Shown: piece by piece, positions 7,799 through 24,341 of the stretch
How the letters are laid out: every line of letters starts with the position of its first letter
Position numbering within the stretch: the stretch's first letter is position 1
From: Gammaproteobacteria bacterium
GTDB taxonomy: Bacteria > Pseudomonadota > Gammaproteobacteria > Pseudomonadales > Azotimanducaceae
Direction: 5' to 3'
DNA: 51,055 nucleotides
NCBI GenBank assembly: GCA_009846005.1
Contig: VXYL01000029.1
Coordinates: 1-51,055 of the forward strand
Notes under the pieces: model-generated
The model's database searches: none
Told to the model about the DNA's origin: nothing
What the model saw: only the letters and a program-made list of their open reading frames with translations
Program-made: the position numbers and the translations under genes

Positions 7799-7908
7799 CT
7801 GGGCAAATCGAAAGCGTCGCCATGGAACGACAGGGCATCGGCGGTGTTGCCGTTGGAGATGCGCTCCGCAAGCGTGTTCAAGACGCGAAGTCGTTCAGGC
7901 TTGTCCAT
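7771..7908 (-). CDS. Possible small protein coupled to the halogenase gene
   Basis: A 45-codon frame starts with an ATG that overlaps the TGA of the halogenase gene (TGATG) and ends inside the 3' end of the convergent ABC-F gene, overlapping it by 28 bases. The product begins MDKPERLRVLNTLAERISNG and contains DALSFHGDAFDLPSY; it is soluble and mixed in charge. I recognise no family. The stop-start overlap is the main argument that it is translated. It could equally be a chance frame in GC-rich DNA or the eroded end of a longer gene. Confidence 0.4.
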   Translation of the reverse strand: MDKPERLRVLNTLAERISNGNTADALSFHGDAFDLPSYSNRSISP

Positions 7909-9194
7909 CAGTTCGCGGCCTGGCAGCCAAGACCTTGGGACATTTGCGCGTAGCTAGTGAGCGGCACGGCGCACATCCGATTCCAGTCCGCCTTGTCGAT
8001 GACGGATTGGTTTACCAGGTTCATCATGTCGTCGAATTTTTGTAGCGCGTCGCAGTCGACGACCTCGGGGTCCGCCGCCTTGCGGCGCTGCGGCCAGGTG
8101 TGGTCACGGGCGTGGCGCCAGAATTCACTGTTGTAGTTCGAGCCACAGGAATAGTGCCAGCCCACGAACAGGCCGTAGCAGAGCATGTTGCTGATGAGAA
8201 ATCGATTGACCACCGGAGCGTCCCGCTCAAGGTGCTCTATCGGGCGGTTCAACCGTATCTGAAGGACCATCCCGATCTGCAACTGCGCGGATACGATCGC
8301 CGTCGCTTCCAACGGCTCCATGAACGCTGCGGCGTTTCCCACCCGGGCGATCGCGCCGTCGAAGACGCGGCGGTGCACGAAATTGGGAAACCGAAGCACG
8401 GCTCGTTGTTCGAATTCCGACACGCCATCGGCTTCAAGGAACGCGTCGAAGTCTGCCTCGACCTCCGCGAGGTCTGTTACGTGGCGGTTGAAAATGTACC
8501 CGTAGGATGTGTGCGCGGTAAGGGGAATGACGAACACCCAACCGTGCGGACGAGCAACGGCGCGCGTATAGGTGTGTTGCACGACCGGCCCACGCTGCGG
8601 CTCATCGATGATCGAGGGACAGCGGCGTATGACGGCGGTATTGGTGGGGATGAAGGAAATGTCGATGTGCTCCTCGGCATCGAGTTCGCTGGGAAATCCG
8701 CGGGCGTCGAAGACTAGGTCGTAGCGTTCCGGCGCCCGGCCTTCGAACTCCACCTTGGCACCGCCATCCACACGGGTGATGTCGCGAACGTTCGCGTCGA
8801 CATGGTGTGCACGTGTGCTTTCGTGCAGCAGTTCCCCCATCAGGTCGGCAGACAGGTGGTAGGCGTAGGAAACTTGCTGCGGCGTGAAGTAGTGCGTGAA
8901 GTCTCGGTTGCGCCGACCCCACCCCTCGAAGGCGACGCCGTACTTGCGAGTTCCCTTCAGACGCTGCTGGACGGTTTCGTGGGGCAAATCCGTGAGCTTG
9001 TGCAGCTCCTGGACGAGACTCGGCCAACTGCCTTCGCCCACGCCGATGACCGGGATGCGCGAATCGTATATGTGGTGCAGTTCGTGATCGCTGTCGGGGT
9101 GCAGGCGCGTGACGCTGGCGGCGGCGAGCGCCCCGGCGGTTCCGCGTCCAACCACGGCGATCTTTCGTAGCGACTTGCTGCCTGGCTGAATCAC
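7908..9194 (-). CDS. Flavin-dependent tryptophan-halogenase family protein
   Basis: This 428-residue protein matches the Trp halogenase family (PF04820). Residues 16-21 (GRGTAG) give the FAD-binding GxGxxG. GVGEGSWP at 51-58 and GTRKYGVAFEGW follow; K84 corresponds in position to the catalytic Lys that forms the chloramine-type intermediate. WVFVIP (219-224) is the WxWxIP motif with Phe for the second Trp. FMEPLEAT (291-298) matches the FxEPLxST motif. Start is GTG. It is the last large gene of a three-gene set behind the LolA-like and barrel genes. Family enzymes act on free Trp, on carrier-bound substrates, or on peptides. The adjacent precursor ends in Trp, which makes that residue a plausible target. 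Halogenation is not proven by sequence. Confidence 0.8.
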   Translation of the reverse strand: MIQPGSKSLRKIAVVGRGTAGALAAASVTRLHPDSDHELHHIYDSRIPVIGVGEGSWPSLVQELHKLTDLPHETVQQRLKGTRKYGVAFEGWGRRNRDFTHYFTPQQVSYAYHLSADLMGELLHESTRAHHVDANVRDITRVDGGAKVEFEGRAPERYDLVFDARGFPSELDAEEHIDISFIPTNTAVIRRCPSIIDEPQRGPVVQHTYTRAVARPHGWVFVIPLTAHTSYGYIFNRHVTDLAEVEADFDAFLEADGVSEFEQRAVLRFPNFVHRRVFDGAIARVGNAAAFMEPLEATAIVSAQLQIGMVLQIRLNRPIEHLERDAPVVNRFLISNMLCYGLFVGWHYSCGSNYNSEFWRHARDHTWPQRRKAADPEVVDCDALQKFDDMMNLVNQSVIDKADWNRMCAVPLTSYAQMSQGLGCQAAN

Positions 9195-9230
9195 CCGGGG
9201 TGCCTCGGTCAGTTGCCGTCTTGGATGGGA

Positions 9231-10451
9231 TCAGAAGCTGAACGTGAAGTCCACGCCCAGCAAGCTGTCGCGGCGGCCGTCGTAGGTCAGGTCCCGGGGA
9301 TCGGCGCTTAGGTTCGCGATCGCTTCGAGGCGCATCGACCAACTGTCGGACAGGCGGCGCTTCAGTTCGACGTTCAACGCCCGATAGTCGTGGCTGAGGT
9401 CGGCGAGGATGCCCGCCGCGAGCTCGGTTCCCGGTACATCGTTGAATGCCAGGAAGCCCGCGACGTACAGGTCGTTCTGCCAGACGCTCCTCGCCCGGCG
9501 TTTGCGCGCGTCGTAGTGCCATTCGGCGAGGACGGTCAAGTCCGCCCGGGAACCGAACAGCGCGTCGATACCGCGTTCCAATCCGAAGACAACAGCCGCG
9601 TAGTCCTCGTCCTGGCCCAGCAGATTGCGCGTTCCGCCGCGGCGAATCGCTTCCATCTTGTAGAGGACAAGCCCGGTGGTAAGCTGCGCGTCGACCCCGA
9701 GTTGCTGCATCTGCTCGTAGTACGGGCGCAAGGTTGCTGCCTGCGCGGGTTCGGATTGACGGCCCACGAGAAACAAGGGTTCGCGGCTGGTCCCGACGAA
9801 GGCGCTCAGCCCGAAGTCAAGCAAGCCCACGCTATGGCTGTACCGGAACGCGAGATCCACATGGCGTTCTTCGGCGCCATCCTCGTAGGTGGCGGCCTCG
9901 TCGATGAGGTGGCGCGCGCGAAGACGCCCGGCGCGGCCGGGAAACGACCGTTTGCGGTGGTACGGCAGGACGAACGACTCGGCGATGCCCCAGTCGCCGG
10001 ATAGGGTCAGGTGCGCCATAGGTTGGCCCAGTTTGGGTCGGTCGCGGGGGTGCTCGATGAGATCCAACTGGTTGACGACGTCGACGAGGTTGTGCAGCTC
10101 GGCGACGCCCCAGAACACCCGGTCGAGTCCCAGCCGAAGCTCCCAGAGATTCTCGCCCCAATCTCCGTGCATCAACAGGTAGGCCTCGCGAACGTCCGCA
10201 TGGGTGCGCCGCGAGTCGGCGCTGTCGTACCGGTAGAGCGCGGTTAGGGTGACGCTGGTTGTGTGGGCGATGTCCGCGTACAGCGTCGGCTCGACGACCA
10301 GCCCAGCCGTGCTTGAACGCTGACCGGAGAAGGCGGGCGATTCCGGATACCACCGCGCCTGTAGGCTAACGTCCCCGGAAAAATCCAGTGTCTGTGCTGC
10401 GACACCCGCAGCGGCGATGGCGAAGGCCGCGATTGCGCCGCCGGTTCTCAT
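9231..10451 (-). CDS. Outer-membrane beta-barrel protein
   Basis: The protein has 406 residues with a signal peptide (MRTGGAIAAFAIAAAGVAAQ, cleavage near Ala-Gln). The rest is rich in alternating hydrophobic strands with Tyr, Trp and Phe, and it ends FTFSF, the terminal aromatic typical of BAM-inserted barrels. It somewhat resembles DUF1302-like barrels found beside RND pumps, but I cannot name a family with confidence. Its ATG overlaps the TGA of the LolA-like gene by one base, and the halogenase starts 36 bases downstream, so the three are probably co-transcribed. A role as outer-membrane exit or receptor for the product of this locus is inferred from context only. Confidence 0.65.
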   Translation of the reverse strand: MRTGGAIAAFAIAAAGVAAQTLDFSGDVSLQARWYPESPAFSGQRSSTAGLVVEPTLYADIAHTTSVTLTALYRYDSADSRRTHADVREAYLLMHGDWGENLWELRLGLDRVFWGVAELHNLVDVVNQLDLIEHPRDRPKLGQPMAHLTLSGDWGIAESFVLPYHRKRSFPGRAGRLRARHLIDEAATYEDGAEERHVDLAFRYSHSVGLLDFGLSAFVGTSREPLFLVGRQSEPAQAATLRPYYEQMQQLGVDAQLTTGLVLYKMEAIRRGGTRNLLGQDEDYAAVVFGLERGIDALFGSRADLTVLAEWHYDARKRRARSVWQNDLYVAGFLAFNDVPGTELAAGILADLSHDYRALNVELKRRLSDSWSMRLEAIANLSADPRDLTYDGRRDSLLGVDFTFSF

Positions 10452-11323
10452 CAGCGCACACGTCGAAGGGCCGTTTGGGTGAACTCGCTCTCGTCAATGT
10501 TGGTGCGGAACCGGAAATCCGTCCACTTTAGCGTCGTGCTGGCGCCTGTCAGGTGATTCACCATCGTCTGTTGTTCCGCCCGCCAGTACCGATCCAGGTA
10601 TTGCTGATAGTTCGCGAAAGTGAGCGTTTTGAGGTGCGAGCCTCTCCGGTCGTGGAGTTCCACCCTCCAGGTTCTAAGTTCGCCGCTGTCCTGCCAAATG
10701 ACCTTGCGGCTGTAGCCGGATTTCTCGTCCAAGGGGAATTGTTCCGTCACGGTACACAAAAGGTCGCCGCAGGGTTCGTCGCGCAGGTACCTGTAGGTGT
10801 ATTCCTCCACCGCGGGCAGGCTCATGTCCTCGTACGAGAACTCGCTACCCATGAACGAGCCGGAACGCCGTGAAGCGCTTATTCGTTTCACCCTCTTCAG
10901 GGCGGGAAGATACAACCACTGATCGTCCTCGGTGTTGACGTGGGCGTGGGTCAGGAGCGCGGTTCCCTGTACGTCCCGCGGCTGGTCGAACACAAACAGG
11001 CTCTTGTCGCCGTTCTCCGGTACCTCGAGCACCTTGAAGCGCATCTGGCGGACGCTCTCCCGACCTTGTCGGTCACGCAGCACCATCGTCATCCCGGCGG
11101 TGAAGTCCCCGAAGCCGTCATTGCGGGCACTTGACTCAAGTGCGAGCCTGAGACCCTTTTCCTCCGCGGTTTCCTCGGCGGCCAGTGCCTGTGTTTGAAG
11201 CAAGGAGAAGCACGCTAGCGCAAGCACGCGGCACGAAGCGCTTCGGCGGCGGGGGCAGTCCCTAGACCAACCTTGGCTGCTAGGCGTTCTTTCGGCGGTC
11301 TCGTGATGAATTAGCACTCGCAC
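10451..11323 (-). CDS. Outer membrane lipoprotein-sorting (LolA-like) periplasmic protein
   Basis: After a signal sequence (ACFSLLQTQALAAEE) the protein shows the pattern of the PF17131-type LolA-like family: MTMVLRDRQGRESVRQMRFK, SLFVFDQPRDVQGTALLTH, WLYLPALKRVKRISASRRSGSFMGSEFSYEDM, and a C-terminal LKWTDFRFRTNIDESEFT. Such proteins are commonly encoded near MMPL/RND exporters and are thought to ferry hydrophobic cargo through the periplasm. No ATG precedes the signal region. GTG codons at 11323 or 11317 are plausible starts, and a TTG at 11401 would give a longer form. It diverges from the precursor gene, so the two may share a promoter region at about 11324-11489. The fusion-free spacing to the barrel gene implies co-translation. 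Confidence 0.75.
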   Translation of the reverse strand: MRVLIHHETAERTPSSQGWSRDCPRRRSASCRVLALACFSLLQTQALAAEETAEEKGLRLALESSARNDGFGDFTAGMTMVLRDRQGRESVRQMRFKVLEVPENGDKSLFVFDQPRDVQGTALLTHAHVNTEDDQWLYLPALKRVKRISASRRSGSFMGSEFSYEDMSLPAVEEYTYRYLRDEPCGDLLCTVTEQFPLDEKSGYSRKVIWQDSGELRTWRVELHDRRGSHLKTLTFANYQQYLDRYWRAEQQTMVNHLTGASTTLKWTDFRFRTNIDESEFTQTALRRVR

Positions 11324-11477
11324 AGGTCCGGTGATGGACGCCTCGCATTGTACCTTGACTCCCGATGAAACCCGGAGAGTTCGAGTTGGTTCAGATTTCA
11401 AACTGATACACGAGCATGGGGCATTGCGCGTCCCGGTTCGCTAGTGCTAGTGTCGAGACCGATGGCACCGACGCAAT

Positions 11478-11483
11478 AGGAGG
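11478..11483 (+). promoter_or_regulatory. Strong ribosome binding site of the precursor gene
   Basis: A perfect AGGAGG sits six bases before the ATG at 11490. It is among the strongest Shine-Dalgarno sequences in the window, as expected for a precursor peptide made in excess over its enzymes. I could not identify convincing -35/-10 boxes in the short gap to the divergent gene. Confidence 0.8.
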
Positions 11484-11489
11484 ATTGCC

Positions 11490-11741
11490 ATGAGAAGCGG
11501 CGATGAAATGCTGCAGCAGATCGTTGAGAAGTCGGCCTTGGACGCGGCGTTCAGGGAACAGCTTCTTGCCGATCCGAAGACGACGATCAGCGCCGAATTG
11601 GGCATTACGATTCCCGAGTCGATGACGATCAAGATCCACGAGAGCGATATGCAGACGGTGCATCTCGCGTTGCCTCCGGATCCCAACATCACCGAGGAGC
11701 AACTCGAAGCCATCTCGGCTGGCCTCTGCTGCTGCTGGTAG
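11490..11741 (+). CDS. NHLP-leader RiPP precursor peptide with LCCCW core
   Basis: This 83-residue peptide has a nitrile-hydratase-alpha-like (NHLP) leader: FREQLLADPK, then ELGITIPESMTIKIHE, then the TVHLALPP motif, then ITEEQLEAISAG. The leader ends in Ala77-Gly78, the place where C39 peptidases cut. What remains is Leu79-Cys80-Cys81-Cys82-Trp83, an extremely small core. Three adjacent cysteines next to a YcaO gene argue for heterocyclisation to thiazoline or thiazole. The gene has a strong RBS, lies on the opposite strand to the biosynthetic operon and converges with its last gene. A leader of the same type is fused to the enzyme at 17754-19052. Family assignment is clear; core boundary and modification are inferred. 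Confidence 0.88.
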   Translation: MRSGDEMLQQIVEKSALDAAFREQLLADPKTTISAELGITIPESMTIKIHESDMQTVHLALPPDPNITEEQLEAISAGLCCCW

Positions 11742-11772
11742 GTCCTCAACCGGCGAAAGCTGGCACGCAGCT

Positions 11773-11792
11773 GCGGCCTGAAACGAGGCCGC
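11773..11792. terminator. Hairpin between convergent genes
   Basis: GCGGCCT / gaaacg / AGGCCGC forms a perfect 7-bp stem with a 6-base loop, extendable by G-U pairs. It lies between the precursor stop and the convergent end of the biosynthetic operon. There is no immediate T-run on either strand, so it may be a weak bidirectional terminator or an mRNA-stabilising 3' structure. Confidence 0.4.
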
Positions 11793-11840
11793 GGTTGCTG
11801 GTCGTGCGTGGTGGTTTTGCATGCTCGTCTTCAACCGGTG

Positions 11841-12959
11841 TCAGAGAGGGACGGCGCCGGAAAGCACCATGAAGACGTAGGCTTTCGCCTTTTGTAGCTG
11901 GTCTTCGGATATGACCAGCTTGATGTGGTGAATGCCGCGTAGCAACACGAAACGGCCGGACTTCCCGAACAGGGCTGTCGGCTTCGTTACCCAGTCGGCA
12001 AGCACCGCCAGCTTCTTCGGCACGACTAGGTCTTCATGGCCCAGGGCGTCGAGAAACGGATCCCAATCGGTCAGGCCGTCGAGCCAGTAGCGCGAGTCCT
12101 TGGTATACCTCTGCTTGACGATCAGGGTAAGGCCGAGGGTTGGCCCGAGACCATCCTCCTGTACGTCGATGTTCGCCCCGGTGCGGACAATGTCGGCGCG
12201 TTCCTTGAAACGCGAGATCACGGCGTCGACCGCCGAGGTCTCGCCCGGCCAACCCGTGTTCTTCAAATAGGAACAGGTCTCCTTGGCGGATCTAAAGCCC
12301 ATAACCGCCAAGCGGATCGACCGTGAGCGGGATGGAAAGACACCGAACGAATCCATGCGCGTGTCTTGGGGCTGCGCCAGGTAGGCTTGCTGGACGTTGT
12401 CGCGCTCGGCCTTGTTCATCTCCCAGCCCACGCTAGAGACGAGCGCGTCAACCACCGTGCCGACGTCGTTCTCCTGACCACGTACACCGAGAATCGGCCG
12501 TTCGCCCGGACGGAGGAACATTCCCGGCAACGAACTCCTGCCACCGTCCGCCGAACCGATGTCGTACTCGAGCATCAACTTGCGGCCGACAATCTGACGC
12601 AGCGGCGAGTCTCCAGTTGCCATTTGCTCAAACAGCCGGCTGATGGCCATCGCCGTCATATCGGTCTTGTCTGTTCGTGCGATCGCTTGAAAAAACGTAG
12701 CCGGTGCGGTTCCGCTTGCCAGAGACGCACCGAAGTCAGCCACTGGCTTGGGTTCATGAAGCGGCAGTTCGAAGCCGAACGGCAGCGCACCCATTGTGAT
12801 CGGCAGTTTCCCGGCACATGCAAGGACACGCTCCCATTCGGGGTCGCCGATGAGAACGGGGGAGACCCGGTCTCGAAAGTTCCCGAGCAGGTCACCCATG
12901 GTGCTGCCCTCTTGGGCGAGTCGGTCCTGGGTTTGTGTGACGGCCTCGTCAATGTCCAT
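11841..12959 (-). CDS. Unrecognised protein, last gene of the RiPP operon
   Basis: I do not recognise this 372-residue protein. It has no signal peptide or membrane segment. Distinct segments are LMLEYDIG, then MFLRPGERPILGVRG, then a middle part with SIRLAVMGFRSAKET, and a C-terminal block with YTKDSRYWLDGLTDWDPFL and GRFVLLRGIHHIKLVISE. The last block looks like the most conserved part. The gene starts nine bases after the YcaO stop and is therefore probably made with the cyclodehydratase. A role in maturation, as a scaffold or an unknown tailoring enzyme, is a guess from position alone. Confidence 0.7.
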   Translation of the reverse strand: MDIDEAVTQTQDRLAQEGSTMGDLLGNFRDRVSPVLIGDPEWERVLACAGKLPITMGALPFGFELPLHEPKPVADFGASLASGTAPATFFQAIARTDKTDMTAMAISRLFEQMATGDSPLRQIVGRKLMLEYDIGSADGGRSSLPGMFLRPGERPILGVRGQENDVGTVVDALVSSVGWEMNKAERDNVQQAYLAQPQDTRMDSFGVFPSRSRSIRLAVMGFRSAKETCSYLKNTGWPGETSAVDAVISRFKERADIVRTGANIDVQEDGLGPTLGLTLIVKQRYTKDSRYWLDGLTDWDPFLDALGHEDLVVPKKLAVLADWVTKPTALFGKSGRFVLLRGIHHIKLVISEDQLQKAKAYVFMVLSGAVPL

Positions 12960-12968
12960 GTCGTCTGC

Positions 12969-15290
12969 TCACGCGATTACCGGTGCCGGGTTCAGGTCGG
13001 CTTCAAGGAGGGGTTTCTTCCGGCGACCCATGCTGACCGGCACATCGTACAGTCGCCCGGGCGCAAATCGAGCCCAGAAATGCCGCATGCCGGGCACGAT
13101 GACCCGGACCACCGGCATGCCGATATCGGGCCGGGTCTGATCCAGCACCATGAACTCCATGCCCTTGGCTTCGACGAGGGCGCGGCAGTGCTCCACGTCC
13201 TCGCGCGTGTCCGTCGACTCGATCACCGGATAGTGCGACCTGTCCCGTGGCGGCCCGTCGGCCGCTGGCGCAAGCCAGATACAATCGGCGAGCCGGGCGG
13301 TTCGCCACCACCACAGCGCCATCGGATCGTCGATCATCGGTCGACCATCTCTCGAACCGGGACGGGGCAGCCAGCTAAGGCACTGGTTCAACTCGCAAAT
13401 CGCCCGCAAGGCCGCGATTCGCGGGTCGGCATGGGCACCGGCGCCATAGATGATGTCCTCCGTTGCGGCGTCCGGTCGGCGTGAGATGGCAACGAACGTG
13501 GGTATGTCGATATCGGCGGTGACGTCGAGCATCCAGACTTCCCGCTCGTAGCGGGCGTACTGGTCACAGGCAGAGGCTAGGTATTCGTCTTCGAAACCCG
13601 CAAGGTCGACACCGGGCGTTCGCAACCGGTTGTACCACCAGATGGCGAACGCATCGCGCTCGACCAGTTCGTAGAAACCCTGCACGATGGCCTCTTCCAA
13701 TGTGTTGCCCGCGGCGCAGCCGCTGGAGTCGGCGATCAAGTCCCGGGGGCCACGCTGTTCGGCCGACATGCCGTAGAGCATCGATGTCGGCAGGTGGCGA
13801 TGCCGCTCGTTTGTCAACGACCACACCGGTGTCCAGTCGATGTCGGCGTCGGGTTCGAGTCGCGGCGGAACGATATTGTAGGGGTGGCCCTTCGCGTTGA
13901 TGCTCGTGGCATTGTCTAGCTGATTGTCGCTGAACAGCTGCGCATCGTTTGGGTGGATTGCCTCTCCCTTCGCGAACTCGGCGAACCGCCTGCGGATGCG
14001 GATCTCGTCGCCATGGTAGGCGCCCGAATAACGCTCGACGGCTTCGCAGAGCGCGCTGACCTCGGATTGCTCGCGGGTGCTGCCTTTCCCCGCGCTCTTG
14101 CTGCGCAGGCTGCGCCTCAACGAACTCAAGCTCCGGCTCCGCATGGCGAGATTGCTCCCGGCCCAATGGACGTGCAGCCAGGAATCGTCCGCGGCGGTGG
14201 TGCGCTTGAGCCAAGTCACGACACCGCTGATCGGACTCACCAGGTGGCGGTACCTGGCCAGGGTGACCGCCGGTGTCACGCTGCGCGAGCCGCCGCTGTT
14301 GTGGTGGACCTTGGGACTTGCGCCCAGACACACGGGAACCGGCGGCCGGTCGGGTCGATGCAACGCTGCGTCGCCGCAGGCGGGGCATTGGGGTCGGCGC
14401 ATTACCGGGTGTCGCGAACTGGCGAACGAGCCGACGTTCATGGCGATCGCATGGTCGTGGATCGGGGCCGCATCCCCGAGCACGACCCATTTGACGATCT
14501 CCGCCGCGATCAGACCGTACAGCGCGGTGAGCACGGCGGGTTCTGTGGCGAACGGCTTGAACGCGGCCCCCTCACCGGCGACATTGCGCAGGAAACCATG
14601 GACCTCCTGGTGGTTGCGCAGGCGGTAGGCGAGGCAGTCCCAGCAAGGTCCTTGCTCATGGGCGCGAAACACCGGGCCGAACAGTGCTTCCATGCCGTGC
14701 GGTCGCACCAACACCCACGGTTCCCTCGCTTCAATGCGGCGCCGGTTCTCCTCGGCGAGGTGTGAATCGAGATAGTCACCGCAGACGACGACAGCGAGGC
14801 GTTTTTTCCGAGGGGCAAGCCCCTCGCGCTCCCCCGCTGAGGGCTCTCCGGTCCCCAATCGGGCGCCTGCACTTGCCAAATGCCTCGTCAAATGGCCGTC
14901 GTCGCCTTCAACCGCAATTAGCGAGTCCTTGAGCCGCTGTTCGACCCACCGAGGCGATGCGCCCAGCGACGACCAGTAGGCCGCCCGGCGACGCTCCATG
15001 CCGTGATCGCCTGATACGACATAGCCCTTGGCGGAGAGCGAAGCGACCGCCGCCGGAATGTCGTCGGCACCGTGCGAGCCCTCCAGCGCCGCCACGATCG
15101 CCTCCATGGAATGCCGACCGTCGAGCAGCGGCAGCAGATCGCGATTGAGCTTGCCGTGCAGCAGGGTATTGAACGCCTCGGAAACCAGGAGCGTCTGCGC
15201 CTCGCCGATAGCGTGAAACTGCAGGTGCGGGGCAAGTGCGGGAAGCTCAACGAAACCCTGGTCCGCAGGGGTCGTCCTGGTCAATGTCAT
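12969..15290 (-). CDS. Fused TOMM cyclodehydratase (leader-binding ThiF-like domain + YcaO)
   Basis: The 773-residue protein combines both halves of an azoline-forming cyclodehydratase. Residues 1-100 resemble the small winged-helix leader-binding domain. About 165-320 is the ocin-ThiF-like part with two zinc-ligand pairs, C216/C219 and C302/C305. About 335-773 is YcaO, with GKGSTREQSEVSALCEAVER (401-420) and GCAAGNTLEEA (524-534) plus ELVERDAFAIWWYN, which bind ATP/Mg in the family. It uses ATP to cyclise Cys/Ser/Thr side chains onto the backbone; the three Cys of the precursor are the obvious targets. The C-terminus NPAPVIA only partly resembles the usual PxPxP. A small palindrome is embedded in the linker (residues ~150-163). 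The ATG overlaps the upstream TGA (ATGA). Confidence 0.92.
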   Translation of the reverse strand: MTLTRTTPADQGFVELPALAPHLQFHAIGEAQTLLVSEAFNTLLHGKLNRDLLPLLDGRHSMEAIVAALEGSHGADDIPAAVASLSAKGYVVSGDHGMERRRAAYWSSLGASPRWVEQRLKDSLIAVEGDDGHLTRHLASAGARLGTGEPSAGEREGLAPRKKRLAVVVCGDYLDSHLAEENRRRIEAREPWVLVRPHGMEALFGPVFRAHEQGPCWDCLAYRLRNHQEVHGFLRNVAGEGAAFKPFATEPAVLTALYGLIAAEIVKWVVLGDAAPIHDHAIAMNVGSFASSRHPVMRRPQCPACGDAALHRPDRPPVPVCLGASPKVHHNSGGSRSVTPAVTLARYRHLVSPISGVVTWLKRTTAADDSWLHVHWAGSNLAMRSRSLSSLRRSLRSKSAGKGSTREQSEVSALCEAVERYSGAYHGDEIRIRRRFAEFAKGEAIHPNDAQLFSDNQLDNATSINAKGHPYNIVPPRLEPDADIDWTPVWSLTNERHRHLPTSMLYGMSAEQRGPRDLIADSSGCAAGNTLEEAIVQGFYELVERDAFAIWWYNRLRTPGVDLAGFEDEYLASACDQYARYEREVWMLDVTADIDIPTFVAISRRPDAATEDIIYGAGAHADPRIAALRAICELNQCLSWLPRPGSRDGRPMIDDPMALWWWRTARLADCIWLAPAADGPPRDRSHYPVIESTDTREDVEHCRALVEAKGMEFMVLDQTRPDIGMPVVRVIVPGMRHFWARFAPGRLYDVPVSMGRRKKPLLEADLNPAPVIA
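14809..14850. repeat. Palindromic repeat inside the YcaO linker
   Basis: CGAGGGG / CAAG / CCCCTCG at 14809-14826 is a perfect 7-bp hairpin followed by CGCTCCCCCGCTGAGGG. The same motif order occurs between scpB and rluB (2084-2129). Here it is translated in frame as SAGEREGLAPRKK between the leader-binding and ThiF-like domains, a place that tolerates insertions. Confidence 0.5.
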
Positions 15291-17683
15291 GCGTGCGACA
15301 GAAGCGTGTCGATCTCTGCGGCAGCCCGCGCTGCGGTTTCCGAGACCGCCGAGGCCAACGCGTCGAAGTCCTCGTGCCCGCACGCGTTCGCAACAAGGGC
15401 CTGCACCTTCGACCCCGCCGCGGCCGCGTCGAATCCTTCCTCGCCGATGAGACGCGTGATGCCCTGCAGATCCCGCCACATGGCCGCGGCTTGCGCCAGC
15501 GATTCCCTACCCGCGCCATCGAACACTTGAGACGCGGTTGGTGCCAGTTCGCCCTGGCCGGCATCGGCATCCGTCAATTGCAGGAGTCGCGCGGTCCGCT
15601 CGATGTCGTTGAGCCCGCCTCGCATTTGCGCATACGCGGACACGCCGGCATCGCCAGGGTTCTCGGACGGTTGGCGCAACCGGGCGACGAGGGTCTCGTC
15701 CGCACTCCACCGGGCGACGACTTCGCGCCACGCTTCGTCGGCGCGTTTCGCGACTCCGGCGTCGCCGCATTCGAACACGCAGCGTGCCCTGGCGACGACA
15801 GGGATTTGATCCGGAGGAGGGTTCCCGCAGCTCTCGGCGAGTTCGGAAAGCGGCACTGCCAAGAGGAAATCCGCATCGGGCGGGATCGGCGAGAACAACA
15901 GGCTGTCCTGCGCCAAGTCGGTCAGCGCCTCACGAAAACGCCGGCACAGGCGTTCGTTCTCGCCAAACTGTCGGCCGTCGTGCGCGAACAACATGTGGAT
16001 TTCAACGCCGGGATAGGCCTCCTGGCTGGCGAGGTCGCCTAAACACATGACGGCGACGCCGTGCCCCTGCAGGTGTCCGAGGCGTTCGGCGAAATCCTCC
16101 ACCACGGCGGCCAGCACGGTGGAAATCGATGCTTCGGCAAGATTCGACAGCGCGGTCTTCGCCTCGGCCGGGGAGAGGTTCCCACGCAACACGTGCATGC
16201 CGATCTGAAATGCCTTGTCGTTCGAGAAGTTTCGGACGATCTCGGCGGAGTCCTTCGCATCGGCCGTCGGTAGCTCCGCAATCAGGTCCTTCATTTCCTG
16301 AACGCCCATCTCGCGCGTCCAATAGAGTCTCGCAAGCCCACGTCGCGCGATCGACTCGCTCTCCTCGTCCGGTCCGAATCCTTTCGGCAGATCCAGATCG
16401 GTGAATTCTCGGTCCTGCAGGTTGTCGAGGAGCTCCGAATGGCGTTCGATCCACTTGGCGAACCGAGGCGCGGCACCGAAGATCTCGACGATCGCCTCGA
16501 AGGCGTCGGGCCGCGCCGCCGTGATCGGGCTGTCGTAGGCGCTCCAGTCGTCGATCTCGGGATAGAAGTGCTTGCGCCATTGGTCCACCAAGGGATCCAT
16601 CTTCTCGAACCAGCGCTTCGGTCGCAGCACGATGTTCATCATGTCGGCGTAGGTTCCCGGCAGTTCCGGGGACTCGGCGGGATCACGGATTTGCAGCAGC
16701 GGATAGTGGCGGCTCGCCATCGCATGGTGGTCCGCATGGCGCTGCATGTTGAAGAACATCCAGTTGCTGAACTTCCAGTCGGCGCTCCATGAATGCCGTG
16801 GCATCACTTTTTCCCAACGACCGTTGGGCAGGCGGATCCGGCGCAGACCGTAGTGCTGGAAGTAGTTGCTGATCTTCATGGAGAACACGCAGGAGAGGCC
16901 GAGCAGGACAAAGACCAGGACCGCCCAGATTCCGCTCATCGAGAACACCAGCGCCCACCAGAAGGCGACAAAGATGCCGTAGCGCCAGAACTGATTGCTG
17001 TAGTGCCAAATGGGCAGGCGCCGCCTTGCTAGGCGTTCGCCCGCGGACTTCCATGCATTGATCAGATTGCTGGCGATTTCCTTGGGAAAATACTGCCAGA
17101 AACTCTCTCCCTTGGGAGCGGATCCCACATCGTGCGGCGTGCCGACCTTGGCGTGGTGGATATAGAGATGCTCCGTGGCGTATTGCGGATAGGAGGCTGA
17201 CGCAAGCAGGAATTCGCCGATCCGTCTTTCCCAGGTAGTGCGCCGGTGGATCATTTCGTGACCGACGACGAACACGGCCTGTGCCTCCATGGTCAACAGA
17301 ATCGCCAGGACGATGTCCTCCCAGATTGCGAACTGATTGGCGACGAGTATTTGCCACAGGCCGAAGATCAATGTCGGCGGCCAAAGAAACGCCCAGGTCC
17401 ACACCGGGATGTTGTGCCACAGGAGGCGGCGTTCCGGCGTTTTCGCCGGGTCCATGTTGCGACCGTCGAGTCCTAGTACCTTGTCGAGCGGGCCCGCGAC
17501 ACTCATGAAGAGGAATGCAGGCAACAACCACCAGCCACCATGGATCGCGGCGAGGAAAAGCAATGGGAAAATACCCAATGGCAGATAATGCGGAAGAGCG
17601 TTCTTGATCGACGGCTGGATATACTGCGGGCTATCAGCCTTGTTCGGGTCTATGCCACCACCTACGACGGAGTCTCCCGACAT
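15287..17683 (-). CDS. AlkB-type membrane hydroxylase fused to a GlnE-like domain
   Basis: The 798-residue protein has two parts. Residues ~30-335 are an integral-membrane di-iron hydroxylase of the AlkB type: HEMIH (142-146), HLYIHH (172-177), NYFQHYG (273-279) and QRHADHHAMASRHY (314-327), with several membrane helices between. Residues ~395-798 resemble glutamine-synthetase adenylyltransferase GlnE: an IVRNFSNDKAFQIG segment, a helix AEASISTVLAAVVEDFAERLG, a strand VAVMCLGDLASQEAYPGVEIHMLF where GlnE has a GMGKLGG...SDxDLIF pattern, then GGLNDIERTARLLQLTD. The catalytic SDxD appears replaced by GVEIH, suggesting a non-catalytic binding module. The ATG at 17683 is preceded by a GAGG-like site. 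It lies between the toroid enzyme and YcaO, so oxidation of the peptide or an attached group is plausible. Substrate unknown. Confidence 0.8.
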   Translation of the reverse strand: MSGDSVVGGGIDPNKADSPQYIQPSIKNALPHYLPLGIFPLLFLAAIHGGWWLLPAFLFMSVAGPLDKVLGLDGRNMDPAKTPERRLLWHNIPVWTWAFLWPPTLIFGLWQILVANQFAIWEDIVLAILLTMEAQAVFVVGHEMIHRRTTWERRIGEFLLASASYPQYATEHLYIHHAKVGTPHDVGSAPKGESFWQYFPKEIASNLINAWKSAGERLARRRLPIWHYSNQFWRYGIFVAFWWALVFSMSGIWAVLVFVLLGLSCVFSMKISNYFQHYGLRRIRLPNGRWEKVMPRHSWSADWKFSNWMFFNMQRHADHHAMASRHYPLLQIRDPAESPELPGTYADMMNIVLRPKRWFEKMDPLVDQWRKHFYPEIDDWSAYDSPITAARPDAFEAIVEIFGAAPRFAKWIERHSELLDNLQDREFTDLDLPKGFGPDEESESIARRGLARLYWTREMGVQEMKDLIAELPTADAKDSAEIVRNFSNDKAFQIGMHVLRGNLSPAEAKTALSNLAEASISTVLAAVVEDFAERLGHLQGHGVAVMCLGDLASQEAYPGVEIHMLFAHDGRQFGENERLCRRFREALTDLAQDSLLFSPIPPDADFLLAVPLSELAESCGNPPPDQIPVVARARCVFECGDAGVAKRADEAWREVVARWSADETLVARLRQPSENPGDAGVSAYAQMRGGLNDIERTARLLQLTDADAGQGELAPTASQVFDGAGRESLAQAAAMWRDLQGITRLIGEEGFDAAAAGSKVQALVANACGHEDFDALASAVSETAARAAAEIDTLLSHA

Positions 17684-17753
17684 GGAAGCGCCTCGTTGAT
17701 CGCCCGAATCGATGCTAGCACCGGGCAGGGGGACCGGCAAACCGTAGGGCGAC

Positions 17754-19052
17754 CTATCGCACCCGGAGCCCGGCGTGCCCGGCGAGACGCTCCAGGGCCT
17801 CGATGCAGAACGCAGAGGTAACGGCCTCGGAGCCATGTCCGATCTGCCCGATCTGACCCCACTTCAAGGACTGGTCGCCGAACGCCAGAATTTCCGGCCA
17901 GCTCCCGTCGTCACGTTGGGAACCCAGGATCCGTTCCACTTGGCGTTTCGCGTCGATGCGTCCAAGACCGCCGACATCGGAGAGGGCCGACACGGCTTGT
18001 GCAGTCCGCAGGACATGGCCGAAATCCCCCTCGGCGTCGCAGAGGTCCAGGATTCGCGCGGCAAGTACGGGGCGCAGGTTCCCGAGCGCGCCTTGTGCTC
18101 GAACCGCGGCACGGGCTAGCGCGTAGTAGATCGCGACGGTGTCGGGATACCATTTGGAGGAGCCCTCAAGGCGCCCTTCGGTGACCAAGCCCTCGAGCCA
18201 GCGTTGCGCCTCCCGGGTGGCGGGGTGGTCGCCCAGGTAGGCGATTACATTCGCGTTGACGACCGGATCGGCTTCGATTCGGAACGGCGCCACCACATTG
18301 GGCTCGTCTTCGTCCAGCACCCAGGTCATGAAACGCCCTTCCTCGTCCCGGTTCGCGAGTATTCGCGGAACGTTCCTTCCGAGCGATATCCAGGGGTGTG
18401 CGCCAACCACCAATGAACAAAGGGTGCTGCTGTCTAGGTCCTGGGGCAGATGGAGGTAGTAGCGCCAGAGTCCGGGGTATTCGATCGTCTCGGCAAGATA
18501 CGCCTTGGTGGTGGAGCGGATCGCCTCGGCCTTGGGTTCGTTGGAACTTTCGAGGGCAAGTGCGCAAAGCGCCGAGATGAAAGGGGGTCTTTCGAAATGC
18601 CGGGGAATGTCGGGGTTTCCGACGTTGAAACGGATGCAGTGCCACGCCCCGTTTTCGTCGATAGTGGATTCTAGGAATCCGAGGCCGCGGCGGATGCTCT
18701 CCCTAGCCGCCTCGACGACGGTCTCACAGGCAATCGCGCTCGCTCGCGCAGGTACGGGGGGACGCATCGGCGGTGCCGGGTCGTGCATGGTCTTCTTGAG
18801 AAACTCGAGCGAGGTCGCACCCCGTCTCGCTGCCTCGCGTTCGGCGTCGCTGAGTTTGCTGCGGGGCGGAAGTACGACATGCGTTTCAGCATGGGATTCC
18901 TCGTGAGCATGGAACCCATGGTCATCGGGGAGCGTCACGCCGAATTCGCGCTCGATCGTGTCTTTGGGGTTGCGAAGGAGACGTTCGCGAAAGTTGCTGT
19001 CCTTGCCAGCCCTCTTCACGAGGGCATCGGATAGGTCAAAGCGTCTCTTCAT
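17754..19052 (-). CDS. NHLP leader domain fused to a toroid (squalene-cyclase/prenyltransferase-repeat-like) protein
   Basis: The 432-residue protein starts with a full NHLP-type leader (1-~80): FRERLLRNPKDTIEREFGVT, a His-rich stretch, VVLPPRSKLSDAEREAARRGA. It aligns throughout with the precursor leader, including the LPP motif, but has Arg-Arg-Gly-Ala where the Ala-Gly cut site would be. After a Pro-rich linker (90-102), residues ~110-432 are all-helical, with NGAWHCIRF, DLDSST (205-210), SSKWYPDTVAIYYALA and SQRDDGSWPE, the last resembling a QW-type repeat of alpha/alpha-toroid enzymes. Catalysis is unproven. The ATG at 19052 was chosen because the leader homology starts there; codons upstream lie in repeat DNA. 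Neighbours are the exporters upstream and the AlkB-type fusion 70 bases downstream. Confidence 0.8.
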   Translation of the reverse strand: MKRRFDLSDALVKRAGKDSNFRERLLRNPKDTIEREFGVTLPDDHGFHAHEESHAETHVVLPPRSKLSDAEREAARRGATSLEFLKKTMHDPAPPMRPPVPARASAIACETVVEAARESIRRGLGFLESTIDENGAWHCIRFNVGNPDIPRHFERPPFISALCALALESSNEPKAEAIRSTTKAYLAETIEYPGLWRYYLHLPQDLDSSTLCSLVVGAHPWISLGRNVPRILANRDEEGRFMTWVLDEDEPNVVAPFRIEADPVVNANVIAYLGDHPATREAQRWLEGLVTEGRLEGSSKWYPDTVAIYYALARAAVRAQGALGNLRPVLAARILDLCDAEGDFGHVLRTAQAVSALSDVGGLGRIDAKRQVERILGSQRDDGSWPEILAFGDQSLKWGQIGQIGHGSEAVTSAFCIEALERLAGHAGLRVR

Positions 19053-19067
19053 TGCTTCGCTGTTTCC

Positions 19068-19162
19068 CGTAGGGGCGACCCTGTCGCGCCCGCGACGACG
19101 CGCGGTCGCCCGGGCCAACGTCCCGACTGTGGCGGCGGGACGGGACAAGCCCGTCCCCTACG
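19068..19162. repeat. REPIN-like inverted pair in the RiPP operon
   Basis: A composite of two palindromic units starts CGTAGGGGCGACC and ends CGTCCCCTACG, matching the layout at 1207-1282. The right unit folds as GGGACGGG / acaag / CCCGTCCC. It sits between the second ABC exporter gene and the leader-toroid gene and occupies most of that 150-base gap, so it may act as an mRNA processing or stability element within the operon. Confidence 0.75.
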
Positions 19163-19202: not shown

Positions 19203-22130
19203 TCAGGCGATCTGCCTTCTGACGAGCTCCCGGAACACCCCGTCGACCTCCATGAGTTCCGTAAACGAGCCGCTTTGTACGACTTTCCCGGCCTGTAACA
19301 CGTAGATCCGGTCAGCCTGTTCCAGCGTGGACAGACGGTGGGCGATGACGATCCGGGTGGAGGTGAGTGCGGTCAGGTTCTCCATCACCTTGGCCTGGCT
19401 CTCGTTGTCCAGCCAGTTGGTCGCCTCGTCGAACATCATGACCCGGGGACTGCCGATCACCGAGCGGGCGATCGTGATCCGCTGGCTCTCGCCCCCCGAC
19501 AGTACGGATCCACTGGTGCCGACCATGGTCATCATGCCCATCGGCATGGCCTTGATCTGGTCTTCCATCTCGGCGGTCCGTGCCGCCTTCCAAACGTCCT
19601 CGGTGGCCACGTCGTCGTGGTGGCCGACCATGTTGTCCCAGAGATCCTGGGGATGGAGACCGACCGATTGCGGCACCGCGCCGATCTGCCGTCTCACCTG
19701 CTTCAGGTTCAGGTGGCGAAGGTCGCGCCCGTCGTAGTAGACCGCGCCGGCGCCGGGCCGGTCGATTCCAAGGGCGAGCCGGAACAGGGTGCTCTTGCCG
19801 GCACCGGACTCGCCGGCGATCGCCACGAACTCGCCGGGGCGGGCGCGAATCGTGACATCGTCGAGAATCAACGGGCCGTCGGGATCGTAGCGGAAGGAAA
19901 TGCGGTCGAAGAGGATCTCGCCGGCGAGATAGTCGACCGGCTCTCCGTCCACCTCGGTCTCGGGAACGGCGGCGAGCAGGGGGCGCATCTGTTCGAACGC
20001 CGGCAGCGTGGCGGCCACGGTGCCGATGGACTCGCCGAGCCGGGCGACGGCGGATTGGAAGGCGATGAAAACGGTGTAGACGACAAGGAAATCGCCGACC
20101 GGTACCGTGCGCTCGCCCACTGTGACAACGGCCAGGAGAAGCACGCCCGCGGCGACGAAGGGGAGGGCGGCGCCAAATGCCCGGGAGTGACCCTCGAGCG
20201 CGGCGAGGTCGAGTTCCGCGCGCTTCTGCTCCCGGTAGTCACCCGCCCAAATCGCGAAAGCCGATCCTTCCGCATTCTCGACCCGCAGCTTGGTGATGCC
20301 GCCGACGATCTGGAAAAGCCGCCCGGCGACGCGACGCCCGGCGCTGATCATCCGCCCGTAGGGGGAAATCTGGCGCATCCCCAGGCCGACGGTGACGACC
20401 AGCGAAGCGAGGCTGAAGACGAGGGTGGCGACCCCGAGGGCGGCATCGTAGAAGAAGATGACGCCGAACACCGGCAGCAGGAAAACAACCGACAGCAGGC
20501 TGTCCGCGACGACTCCCTGCAAGCCGTCCCGCAGGTTCTGGAATGTCATTCCCGCCATGGCAAGGTCGCCGGACGGGTGGCGGTGCATGACGCTTGGCGG
20601 AAGGCGCAGGAGGCGGTCCCAGAACGCGGCTTCGACGCGGGACGCCGAGCGACCCTCGAGTCTCATCATCGCGGTGCTTTGAAGGACGTGCAGCATGGCT
20701 CCGAGCAGACCAAAGCCCGCCACCGCGATGGCCACTGCGTAGAGCGCACCGGCGCTGCCGCCCCCCGCTACATGATTCGCGACGAAGCCAAGCGCCAGCG
20801 CGGGCAGAAGCTTGATCAGACCGCCGGGAAGTCCGGCGATCACCAACCGCGCCAGTTCCGCGGCCGATCCATGAAGAGCCATCGCGACGAGATCCGCCGG
20901 CTTCGCAGCGCCAGCCGGCAGTGGCCGGTAGAACATCCACGCGTCCCCTGATAGTGCTTCGACGCGAGCGGCCGTCACCCGAGTGCTGCGCTTGGTGACC
21001 GGGTCGACCATCCGGTAGCGCCCGAACATCCCCGGCAGTAGGGCGACGGGCTGGCCGTCCTCGCGGAAGGCCAGCATCGCGTTGCTGTCTGTGCGCCACC
21101 AGTTCTCCTCGCCGTTCAACCGGATGCGCCGCGCCCGTACGCCCGATGCATCGAGCACGTCGACGAGGCCGATGGGAGCGTCGGAAACCCCCGGACGTGC
21201 CGGGATCCTGAATTCGATGCCTTCGCGGTGGCCGATGATCTTCAGGGCGTCCGCGAGGGCCGTGTCCTGGACGTCGGCGTCCCCGTCAATCGGCAGGTCG
21301 TACATGTTGAACAGACGCTGCCGTGCAACCTTCTCGGCCGTGTGCCGGCTCATCGTCCGCGCACGCTCGAGATTCGCCTCGTCGACGACGGCCAGTCGCC
21401 GATTGAGGCGTTCCAATGTGAACGCGACCGCGCGAAACGCGGCGAGCGCCGGCAGCAGCACGCCCTCCGCGGCTAGCGTCTCGGTCGACTTGCCCTCCAG
21501 CGTGGCCTCCTCGAACAAGGTGAGCCAGCTTGTCCGCGTCAGCGGTATCGGCGCGTCCGCAGAGCCGCTCCCGGCAAGGTCCGCGGAGTCGACGATGTCC
21601 ATGAACGCGCTTGTGCCCCGCGGCGGTTGGGGAACCCAGACCACGTCGCGGCGAACCGATAGCGTACAAGGTGGCGCTAGGTCGAGCGTCAAGCCAGATT
21701 CTGCCAGCGCCGTTGGACGCGGAATGCGACCGACGAACCGCGACAGCGCGTCGGTGATTTCGGTCAGCCAGGTATCGACCTGTTCCGCGAGCTCTGCTGG
21801 GTCAACCTCGGATAGCTTGGATGCCGGTAGTCGCCGGAGCACGGTACCCGGTAGTCCCTTGGCGACAAGGCTCAAGGTCGTGCCTTCGTCACCGTCCTGT
21901 TCGTCCGGTGCCACCCCGAGCAGCAACCCGCCGGTCTCCCGGCGCATCATATGCTGCGGGGCCGCCTGCTCCACGCCGTCCTTGAACTCGACCAGGAACA
22001 GGTTGACGGTGCCCTGCTCGATGAACCACACGCTATCCGGATCGTCCGGTGCCACCGGCCGGTTGCCGGCACAGGGTACGGATGTCCCGGATCGAGCGGC
22101 GAGTTTCGCGATCGACGTGTACTCTCGCAT
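19203..22130 (-). CDS. NHLP-type bacteriocin export ABC transporter, permease/ATPase without peptidase
   Basis: The 975-residue protein has an N-terminal region (about 1-330) with VWFIEQGTVNLFLVEF, resembling the cyclic-nucleotide-binding-like domain usual in this NHLP exporter subfamily (TIGR03797 type). Next is a six-helix ABC exporter membrane domain (~430-700) and an ATPase with GESGAGKST, VLSGGESQRITIARS and MMFDEATNWLD. No C39 peptidase is present; that activity is in the partner encoded just upstream. The start at 22130 overlaps the partner's TGA by one base (TGATG), so the two are probably made as a heterodimer. The open frame extends further upstream, but only the coupled start fits. 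Confidence 0.9.
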   Translation of the reverse strand: MREYTSIAKLAARSGTSVPCAGNRPVAPDDPDSVWFIEQGTVNLFLVEFKDGVEQAAPQHMMRRETGGLLLGVAPDEQDGDEGTTLSLVAKGLPGTVLRRLPASKLSEVDPAELAEQVDTWLTEITDALSRFVGRIPRPTALAESGLTLDLAPPCTLSVRRDVVWVPQPPRGTSAFMDIVDSADLAGSGSADAPIPLTRTSWLTLFEEATLEGKSTETLAAEGVLLPALAAFRAVAFTLERLNRRLAVVDEANLERARTMSRHTAEKVARQRLFNMYDLPIDGDADVQDTALADALKIIGHREGIEFRIPARPGVSDAPIGLVDVLDASGVRARRIRLNGEENWWRTDSNAMLAFREDGQPVALLPGMFGRYRMVDPVTKRSTRVTAARVEALSGDAWMFYRPLPAGAAKPADLVAMALHGSAAELARLVIAGLPGGLIKLLPALALGFVANHVAGGGSAGALYAVAIAVAGFGLLGAMLHVLQSTAMMRLEGRSASRVEAAFWDRLLRLPPSVMHRHPSGDLAMAGMTFQNLRDGLQGVVADSLLSVVFLLPVFGVIFFYDAALGVATLVFSLASLVVTVGLGMRQISPYGRMISAGRRVAGRLFQIVGGITKLRVENAEGSAFAIWAGDYREQKRAELDLAALEGHSRAFGAALPFVAAGVLLLAVVTVGERTVPVGDFLVVYTVFIAFQSAVARLGESIGTVAATLPAFEQMRPLLAAVPETEVDGEPVDYLAGEILFDRISFRYDPDGPLILDDVTIRARPGEFVAIAGESGAGKSTLFRLALGIDRPGAGAVYYDGRDLRHLNLKQVRRQIGAVPQSVGLHPQDLWDNMVGHHDDVATEDVWKAARTAEMEDQIKAMPMGMMTMVGTSGSVLSGGESQRITIARSVIGSPRVMMFDEATNWLDNESQAKVMENLTALTSTRIVIAHRLSTLEQADRIYVLQAGKVVQSGSFTELMEVDGVFRELVRRQIA

Positions 22131-24340
22131 CAGCCCGACTTCGCCAGCTTGTAGTAGGTGCCATTCTCGTCGGCGATCAACTCGTCGTGCGTACCGCGCT
22201 GAATTTCGACGCCCGCCTCGAGTACGACGATCTCGTCGCAATCGCGCACGGTGGAGAGCCGGTGCGCCACGATCAGGCAGGTGACCCCGCGCCGCCGCAA
22301 CGCATCATCGACAAACTCTTCCGTCGCCGCATCGAGTGCACTGGTCGCCTCGTCCAGGATGAGGACCGTCGGGTTGCCCACCAGCGCCCGGGCTATCTCC
22401 AGGCGTTGCCGCTGACCACCGCTGAAGTTCACCCCGCCTTCCTCGACGAGCGTCGAATAACCCTGCGGCCTAAGGAGGATTTCATGGTGGATGCGGGCAT
22501 CTCGCGTCGCGGAGAAAATGGCTTCGTCCGGAACAGCCGGGTTCCACAAGGTGATGTTGTCGCGCAGGGACGCGGAAAACAGCACGATGTCCTGATCCAC
22601 CATGGAAATGGACCGTCTAAGCACCTCCTCGGGAACGGTGTCCCGCCGATGGCCATCGAAGAGGATCTCCCCCGACCACGGCTGGTAGATCCCCGAAACC
22701 AGGCGGGCAAGGGTCGACTTGCCGGACCCGCTGGGACCGACCACGGCAACGCGCTGGCCCGGATGGATTGCAAGGTTGAAGTCCTTGATCAGCGGCGGTT
22801 TGCTCCTGTTGAACCCGAAGGTGACGTTTTTCAGTTCAATCGCCCCGGCAAGCTGAAGGCGGCCCCTGAACGTGGGGATTGATACCGAGTCCTGACTTCG
22901 GCGCGCGAAAGCCGGGTCCTCGGCGGCCTTGGCGATGTCCTGCAGGCGTTGCAGGTCGGTTTCGAGCGCCTGGCGTTTATCGGCGAATTCCAGGAACCGC
23001 CCGATCGGCGCGAGGAACATCTCGGCGAGGATGTAGAACCCCACCAGCGTTCCGAGGCTCATTGCCCCCGTCATGACGAAACCGCCCCCGACGCCAAGGA
23101 TGGCCGCGGCGCGAAGCGCCCCGATCAGGCCGGGAAGTGCAGTATTGGCGGCGCCCAGTTCGGAATAGCGCTGGCGCGCGGTGAGTTCGCGTGCCTGCTG
23201 ACCCGCCCAGCGCGAAAAGAACCGGTCGTCGGCGCCCGTCATGCGTAGGTTGTCGGCTGATTGCAGCATCTGCATGCCGACGCCGATCAGCAGGCCCTGT
23301 TCGCGCCGCATCGCTTGGCTTCGAACCGCCCGGAACGCGTTGAGATAGTGGGCCAGCACGCCATGTAGGAGGGCCAGAAACACGACGAGGAGCGTGAGCA
23401 GTGCATCGTAGGCCAACATGGCGATGAGCAGCACGGCACTCATCGCCATGTCGACAAGAAGGACCAGGAACTGATCCGTCAGGTTCTTCGCGACGCGGTC
23501 GGTGGACGAGACGCGGTCGGTGAGATCCCCGACCAGGCGGTGCTCGAAGAAGTCCACCGGCAACCGCAAGAGCTTTGACAGACCTTGGCTGTAGCCGATC
23601 ACCGATATGCGGACCGCGAGTCGTTTGAGGAATCGGTGCTTCAAGAGGGACAGGATGTAGACGAGGACACCGGCGCCAAGCAGGGCCGCCATTATTCCGC
23701 TCCAAGGCCCGTGGTTGTGGAGAACGTCGTCCACGAAAGCACGCAAGGAAACAGGCACAGCCAGGGACAGCAACGTCAGCATGAGCCCGCAGGCGACCAT
23801 AGCCGCAAGCACCCGCCATGACCCGGCGAGCAAGGCGTGCAATTGGCTGAACAGGCCGGGCGGCTCGCCACCGGGTTCGAAGGCGTCGCCGGGCTTGAAC
23901 CGCAACGCGATTCCACTGTAGCCCTTGTTGAACTCCTCCGCGGAGAGCCTGCGTCGTCCCGTGGACGGGTCGTTAAGATAGAAGTACCGTGAGTCGAAGC
24001 CTTCGACGATCAGGAAATGGCTGAACTGCCAGAACACGATCACCGGCAGGTCCACCTTCTTCAGTGCCTCGGCACGTACGCTCAAGCCATTGCATTCAAG
24101 GCCAAAGTGTCTCGACGCGCGCATGATGCTCGCGGCGCTGCTGCCGTCGCGGCTCACCTCGCATTTCTCGCGCAGTTCGGTAAGAGGGGCCCAGCGACCG
24201 AAGTGGCCCAATATGCTGCCGAGGCAGGCGGCACCGCATTCCGAGGCGTGCATCTGCAACAGGACCGGCGTGGTTACCCGTTTCTTGGCGGGTTCCGATA
24301 CGCCGTTCTGCTTCGCCCGATTCGAAGCGCCCGCCGGCAT
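22130..24340 (-). CDS. NHLP-type bacteriocin export ABC transporter with C39 leader peptidase
   Basis: This 736-residue protein is a peptidase-containing ABC transporter. The N-terminal C39 domain has Gln29 and Cys35 in QMHASECGAACL, His108 in FSHFLIVEG and Asp124 in YLNDPSTGRR, so the catalytic residues are intact. A six-helix membrane domain follows (~180-460), then an ATPase with GPSGSGKST, NFSGGQRQRLEIARAL and VLILDEATSALD. It should cut the precursor after Ala-Gly and move the core across the inner membrane. It starts one base after the HlyD-like gene and overlaps the second ABC gene. Confidence 0.95.
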   Translation of the reverse strand: MPAGASNRAKQNGVSEPAKKRVTTPVLLQMHASECGAACLGSILGHFGRWAPLTELREKCEVSRDGSSAASIMRASRHFGLECNGLSVRAEALKKVDLPVIVFWQFSHFLIVEGFDSRYFYLNDPSTGRRRLSAEEFNKGYSGIALRFKPGDAFEPGGEPPGLFSQLHALLAGSWRVLAAMVACGLMLTLLSLAVPVSLRAFVDDVLHNHGPWSGIMAALLGAGVLVYILSLLKHRFLKRLAVRISVIGYSQGLSKLLRLPVDFFEHRLVGDLTDRVSSTDRVAKNLTDQFLVLLVDMAMSAVLLIAMLAYDALLTLLVVFLALLHGVLAHYLNAFRAVRSQAMRREQGLLIGVGMQMLQSADNLRMTGADDRFFSRWAGQQARELTARQRYSELGAANTALPGLIGALRAAAILGVGGGFVMTGAMSLGTLVGFYILAEMFLAPIGRFLEFADKRQALETDLQRLQDIAKAAEDPAFARRSQDSVSIPTFRGRLQLAGAIELKNVTFGFNRSKPPLIKDFNLAIHPGQRVAVVGPSGSGKSTLARLVSGIYQPWSGEILFDGHRRDTVPEEVLRRSISMVDQDIVLFSASLRDNITLWNPAVPDEAIFSATRDARIHHEILLRPQGYSTLVEEGGVNFSGGQRQRLEIARALVGNPTVLILDEATSALDAATEEFVDDALRRRGVTCLIVAHRLSTVRDCDEIVVLEAGVEIQRGTHDELIADENGTYYKLAKSG

Positions 24341-24341
24341 C

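Follow-up and report, generated by a model that had tools for sequence, protein, structure and literature searches.

The precursor gene

The DNA analyzed here (the window) is a stretch of 51,055 nucleotides from a gammaproteobacterial genome (contig VXYL01000029.1), and its subject is a small precursor gene that, with the genes around it (Table 1), very probably forms an srp-type proteusin cluster. The 83-codon frame translates to ...NITEEQLEAISAGLCCCW and its product ends in ...EAISAGLCCCW. The sequence-only reading of this DNA had proposed an 83-residue precursor with a nitrile-hydratase-like leader (NHLP) ending in LCCCW, and both the translation and the NCBIfam model bear this out: leader_NHLP (TIGR03793) matches precursor residues 6-78 with an E-value of 1.2e-18 and 66.7 bits, above the cut-off of 50.9. 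The NHLP structure 8TB1 also matches the precursor (9.7e-11).

To assess conservation, genome contigs were scanned for relatives of the precursor; 164 were found and the best 80 were kept, while the other 84 could hold other cores. All 80 kept relatives have 83 residues and end in AGLCCCW, and all 19 further loci taken as best matches within the same family end in GLCCCW, so that the Cys tail, whose loss in homologues would have counted against the sequence-only reading, is retained in every one of these. The kept relatives represent 80 distinct DNA sequences and 69 distinct protein sequences with synonymous codon changes in the core, and the median ratio of nonsynonymous to synonymous substitution rates (dN/dS) is 0.062 across 250 of 300 random pairs, the remaining 50 being saturated or failed. 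Given that relatives with distinct DNA keep the same length and the same LCCCW end at a low dN/dS, we conclude that the 83-codon frame is a real gene. A chance open reading frame (ORF) is ruled out by the NHLP score and the 80 kept cores under purifying selection.

The hairpin 3' of the precursor is a possible terminator or attenuator. Stems of at least 7 bp occur downstream of 67 of 81 precursors, a count made without a shuffled control; consensus scans for promoters and terminators gave no match, and the hairpin itself likewise has no terminator match. Elsewhere in the same genome lies a second NHLP precursor (G000:C5:287767-287991) with a Cys-free tail ending in DTDWQNHPIFHD, which has relatives in several members of the genus.

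Relation to the published srp clusters

Two papers on the srp clusters give the SrpE core as LCCCW and report that SrpC, a YcaO enzyme, converts its three Cys to thiazolines, and that SrpI, a flavin enzyme, carries out a leader-dependent bromination at indole C6 of the C-terminal Trp (PMC10858898, PMC10286304). One of them places the leader motif NLTEEQL at SrpE residues 66-72, and in SrpI the catalytic residue Lys84 and the substrate loop PQQVS at 105-109 (PMC10858898). The window precursor has the same core and a motif at the same residues, although it reads NITEEQL; the YcaO protein near it is of the SagD family, with a likely start at 15290; and the window halogenase has Lys84 and PQQVS at the published SrpI positions. 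Because the core, the leader motif, the SagD-family YcaO and the SrpI-like residues are all present, we conclude with considerable confidence that this gammaproteobacterial locus is a copy of the srp proteusin cluster known from sponge microbiomes and would make a bromo-tri-thiazoline. Hence, the LCCCW core and its thiazolines are not new, having already been published as SrpE/SrpC/SrpI. The sequence-only reading was right about the NHLP leader, the five-residue core, a YcaO enzyme acting on Cys and a C39-type ABC exporter, but it missed both the halogenase and the published SrpE/SrpC/SrpI system.

Among 16 aligned halogenases, Lys84, P105 and S109 are invariant, while Q106, Q107 and V108 differ in a few. 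Where no halogenase lies near the precursor (13 loci), a full-length one was found elsewhere in the genome in 11 cases (one with a TAG), a fragment in one and none in one. Conversely, SrpI is also absent from G001 and G236, whose cores have no Trp (the G001 assembly is 81% complete), and G008, in which an LCCCW precursor occurs alongside an LCCCL one, has a single full-length SrpI match, located between the two blocks. A strict coupling of core Trp and brominase is thus mostly upheld. In one LCCCW cluster (G021:C63:2562-3769) the halogenase lies in two separate pieces, so that either the gene is broken or the assembly is wrong there.

The gene set

All annotated neighbours of the precursor (7908-27266) lie on the reverse strand. 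Co-occurrence was counted over 41 loci with both 10-kb flanks, using identity thresholds; partial genes are included and genes more than 10 kb away are missed. The YcaO and ABC2 genes were each found in 39 of these loci, the cyclase-like gene in 38, the prenyltransferase-like gene in 36, the AlkB-GlnE fusion in 34 and the halogenase in 28; lower counts were obtained for the LolA-like and ABC1 genes (20 each), the 406-aa protein (17), and the HlyD-like and MMPL genes (12 each). To the right of the cluster are genes for a 2471-aa CARDB-domain protein (29611-37026) and a 1857-aa subtilase (41885-47458).

Table 1. Features of the srp-type locus, by position in the window
Feature	Position	Strand	Basis and remarks
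SrpI-type flavin-dependent Trp brominase; Lys84, loop PQQVS 105-109	7908..9194	-	PF04820 5.6e-45
406-aa protein without Pfam match	9231..10451	-	present in 23/80 srp loci
LolA-like outer-membrane lipoprotein-sorting protein (actual start probably internal to this frame)	10451..11401	-	PF17131 1.5e-57; 30/80 srp loci
Shine-Dalgarno AGGAGG	11478..11483	+	sequence, ahead of precursor ATG; strong ribosome-binding site
SrpE-type NHLP precursor, 83 aa, core LCCCW after Gly78, motif NITEEQL at residues 66-72	11490..11741	+	translation, NCBIfam, published SrpE numbering
13-bp hairpin 3' of precursor	11767..11798	+	z -3.08; no T run by scan
372-aa protein, predicted ABBA-fold aromatic prenyltransferase	11841..12959	-	predicted fold
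SrpC-type YcaO cyclodehydratase fused to leader-binding E1-like domain	12969..15290	-	TIGR03604 273.9 bits (cut-off 219.25), TIGR03882 141.8 (36.9), PF02624 4.3e-96
AlkB-type alkane monooxygenase fused to GlnE-like domain	15287..17683	-	8f6t E 2.7e-46
NHLP domain with class II terpene-cyclase-like domain, invariant DLDS	17754..19052	-	NHLP 48.5 bits (cut-off 50.9), predicted fold
NHLM ABC2 export protein	19203..22130	-	TIGR03797 674.3 bits (cut-off 709.4)
NHLM ABC1 export protein with C39 peptidase	22130..24340	-	TIGR03796 837.7 bits (cut-off 853.3); PF03412 4.6e-33
Short HlyD-like secretion protein	24342..24917	-	TIGR03794 E 6.1e-7, 28.7 bits (cut-off 156.2)
MMPL/RND-type exporter	24960..27266	-	PF03176 1.9e-34

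A predicted terpene module

The part of this analysis that is new is a predicted terpene module; the core, thiazolines and bromination were already known. The predicted model of the 372-aa protein beside the precursor has an ABBA fold and gives a full-length, high-confidence match to aromatic prenyltransferases, as obtained by VIA-align on Foldseek's top chains, and we predict that it is a prenyltransferase of this class. No sequence match above chance was found in Pfam, NCBIfam or the PDB; when 28 members were scanned against Pfam and the window protein against NCBIfam, the chance-level matches (E up to 1) included no prenyltransferase. At the five loci without a nearby prenyltransferase-like gene, the gene was found elsewhere in all five genomes, in two of them with one in-frame TAG (G979:C21:48872-49984 and G981:C51:254838-255950, in the genomes of loci L073 and L091, both titled Gemmatimonadetes).

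Class II terpene cyclases carry an acidic DxD(T/D) motif. The predicted model of the cyclase-like protein matches the alpha-alpha toroid fold (E 2.5e-12; template modelling score 0.59 by query length), and its DLDS, invariant in 28 of 28 aligned proteins, aligns to DDLDTT with S replacing T. Of 16 genomes of the genus, 10 have the 372-aa protein, and these are also the 10 with a CCC-core SrpE. One of the remaining six, G011, probably reflects a gap in the assembly and not a true absence, because its contig ends before the precursor side; both G011 and G916 hold a cyclase-like protein without SrpE, and in both the contig ends at this point.

Together, the prenyltransferase-like, cyclase-like and AlkB genes point to a prenylated, perhaps terpene-cyclized, brominated tri-thiazoline peptide. 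SrpC would convert the Cys of LCCCW to thiazolines and SrpI would brominate indole C6 of the C-terminal Trp with the leader still attached, both being steps reported for the published homologues. The 372-aa protein may prenylate the peptide, the NHLP-fused cyclase-like protein may cyclize the prenyl chain, and the AlkB-type enzyme may hydroxylate the terpene-bearing product, while the C39 domain of the NHLM exporter would cleave after Gly78 and the pentapeptide would be exported. Judged from fold and context, the prenylation, cyclization and hydroxylation steps are put forward tentatively, at somewhat less than even confidence.

The putative prenylation and cyclization would parallel NctPC, which reportedly attaches C20 to the Trp of a ribosomally synthesized and post-translationally modified peptide (RiPP) and cyclizes the C20 chain. 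Both systems would pair an ABBA-like barrel prenyltransferase with an MstE-like class II cyclase within a RiPP pathway; in srp, however, the two predicted roles would fall to separate proteins, the cyclase-like one bearing an NHLP domain, and azolines and a brominase are added. PalQ/PalX of Paenibacillus alvei is reported to combine likewise an NHLP precursor ending in Trp with a prenyltransferase, but PalQ belongs to the isoprene synthase superfamily, and its cluster consists of three genes (kinase, precursor, PalQ), none of them for a YcaO, halogenase or cyclase. The MprC/MprE azol(in)e proteusins share the NHLP leader and YcaO, yet have ten precursors and an azoline oxidase, MprD, of a kind not seen among the window ORFs scanned. 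The literature searches made turned up no earlier account of the terpene reading for srp, although a 2021 srp paper and a 2024 paper on RiPP polycyclic isoprenoids may already describe these neighbours. If a prenyltransferase and a terpene cyclase do act beside SrpE, the masses to be expected change, and thiazoline formation and bromination by themselves leave the product unfinished.

Variant precursors

Six more distant precursors have the cores LCCCL, MCCCL, LCCC, VCQC, GGECIC and LCACM. The three Trp-less CCC relatives (LCCC, LCCCL, MCCCL) all retain the prenyltransferase-like protein, but neither a brominase nor a cyclase belongs to their blocks. The LCCC cluster (G236) has this gene together with YcaO, AlkB-GlnE, exporters and MMPL; no halogenase match was found in the whole G236 genome and no cyclase-like protein in the 20 kb of the cluster. 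In the LCCCL and MCCCL variants (L114:1102-12302 and L116:1293-10255), the precursor is separated from the prenyltransferase-like gene by a gene for an FAD-linked, cytokinin dehydrogenase-type oxidase, which in L116 is split into two overlapping frames.

The two-Cys cores VCQC, GGECIC and LCACM belong to three NHLP precursors at a single locus, L115 (G021:C21:25001-45000), whose neighbours are an MNIO maturase, an HvfC-like protein, a methyltransferase, two paralogues of the 372-aa protein and NHLM exporters; no YcaO match was found within its 20 kb. An NHLP-like precursor in Pseudomonas clusters is also described in a paper dealing with MNIO enzymes (PMC12636437), and we therefore do not claim the NHLP-MNIO pairing as new.

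Interpretation of the srp product

Several points weigh against the picture drawn so far. When the published srpC and srpE were expressed together in E. coli, the result was a mixture of incompletely modified peptides, and full ring formation on LCCCW came from MprC/MprD with a chimeric leader (PMC10286304); no srp product was found reported from any host. Both NHLM ABC models score just below their curated cut-offs and the HlyD model far below, and two LCCCW genomes have no intact SrpI (none in G427, a 127-position fragment in G437). The 372-aa protein is 6-13% identical to the solved prenyltransferases listed, with no Pfam or NCBIfam model above chance, and since its relatives persist with Trp-less cores, Trp need not be the acceptor. 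The NHLP part of the cyclase-like model is of low confidence, with Arg in place of Leu at residue 72.

Some of these points favour taking the 372-aa protein as an ABBA-fold protein other than a prenyltransferase, acting as a leader-binding chaperone or partner of SrpE-like precursors: it accompanies YcaO clusters and the MNIO locus alike, it travels with CCC-core SrpE in the same 10 of 16 genus genomes (G011 probably being an assembly gap), and its sequence gives no match to known prenyltransferases. We nevertheless hold this to be rather unlikely, given the structural match and the fact that 38 of the 41 loci also hold a class II cyclase-like protein as partner. That nothing is added to the published brominated tri-thiazoline, the terpene-type genes making a separate lipid instead, would agree with the accounts of the published homologues, which in the parts available report only the thiazoline and bromine steps. 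This is unlikely, as the leader fold of the precursor recurs in the cyclase-like protein and these genes are grouped together in loci of several phyla. The sequence-only reading had also raised a ribosomal metallophore, in which an exported tri-thiazoline peptide binds Cu, Zn or Fe and bromination is an add-on. Across LCCCW, LCCCL, MCCCL and LCCC the CCC block stays fixed and the final residue changes, the related three-precursor locus adjoins an MNIO maturase of the HvfB/BufB type, and bufferins are described as chelating copper. However, no gene for metal uptake, a receptor or a metal regulator was seen in those ORFs of the window that were scanned (47589-50366, for instance, lies outside the scan). 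A literature search joining metallophore, thiazoline, RiPP and YcaO found nothing. The conserved brominase, AlkB-type hydroxylase, and predicted prenyltransferase and terpene cyclase indicate instead a lipophilic, decorated peptide, and a metallophore is thus very unlikely.

The furthest-reaching reading, put forward tentatively and with a confidence that stays below even, is that the srp product may be a ribosomal meroterpenoid: a tri-thiazoline whose C-terminal bromo-Trp is also prenylated by a new ABBA prenyltransferase family, cyclized by a class II enzyme for which the NHLP fold would be the docking domain, and then hydroxylated by an AlkB-type enzyme. If the meroterpenoid reading is true, the prenyltransferase family also serves Trp-less cores and an MNIO-type pathway.

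Distribution

By the submitters' record titles, the 80 kept loci fall into six phyla: Pseudomonadota (50), Acidobacteriota (19), Gemmatimonadota (8), and Rhodothermota, Binatota and Myxococcota (1 each). The fixed core across these phyla favours one conserved role over an arms race, and a meroterpenoid would therefore be a shared molecule of sponge microbiomes. The SrpE profile matches in 45 of 200 genomes of the same family, weaker leader-only matches being counted too, and in 2 of 398 genomes of a phylum sample, namely the window's own genome and one weak match. A plasmid search gave six records with distant NHLP-like proteins, at less than 60% identity.

In the YcaO tree, a single acidobacterial clade (16 of 56 rows) is rejected (AU test, p 0.0067), the group having been tested after the first tree had been seen, and the Acidobacteriota are not kept together. 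This could reflect transfer, but mis-binned contigs could give the same pattern. The matched records are presumably of sponge origin, which we take partly from isolate names; one organism name searched together with sponge returned no paper. Published srp clusters are reported as common to different sponge species. Contig C1 of genomes G830 and G869 carries 14 and 16 SrpE-leader-like matches, respectively, several of them in tandem near 3.01 Mb and 2.56 Mb.
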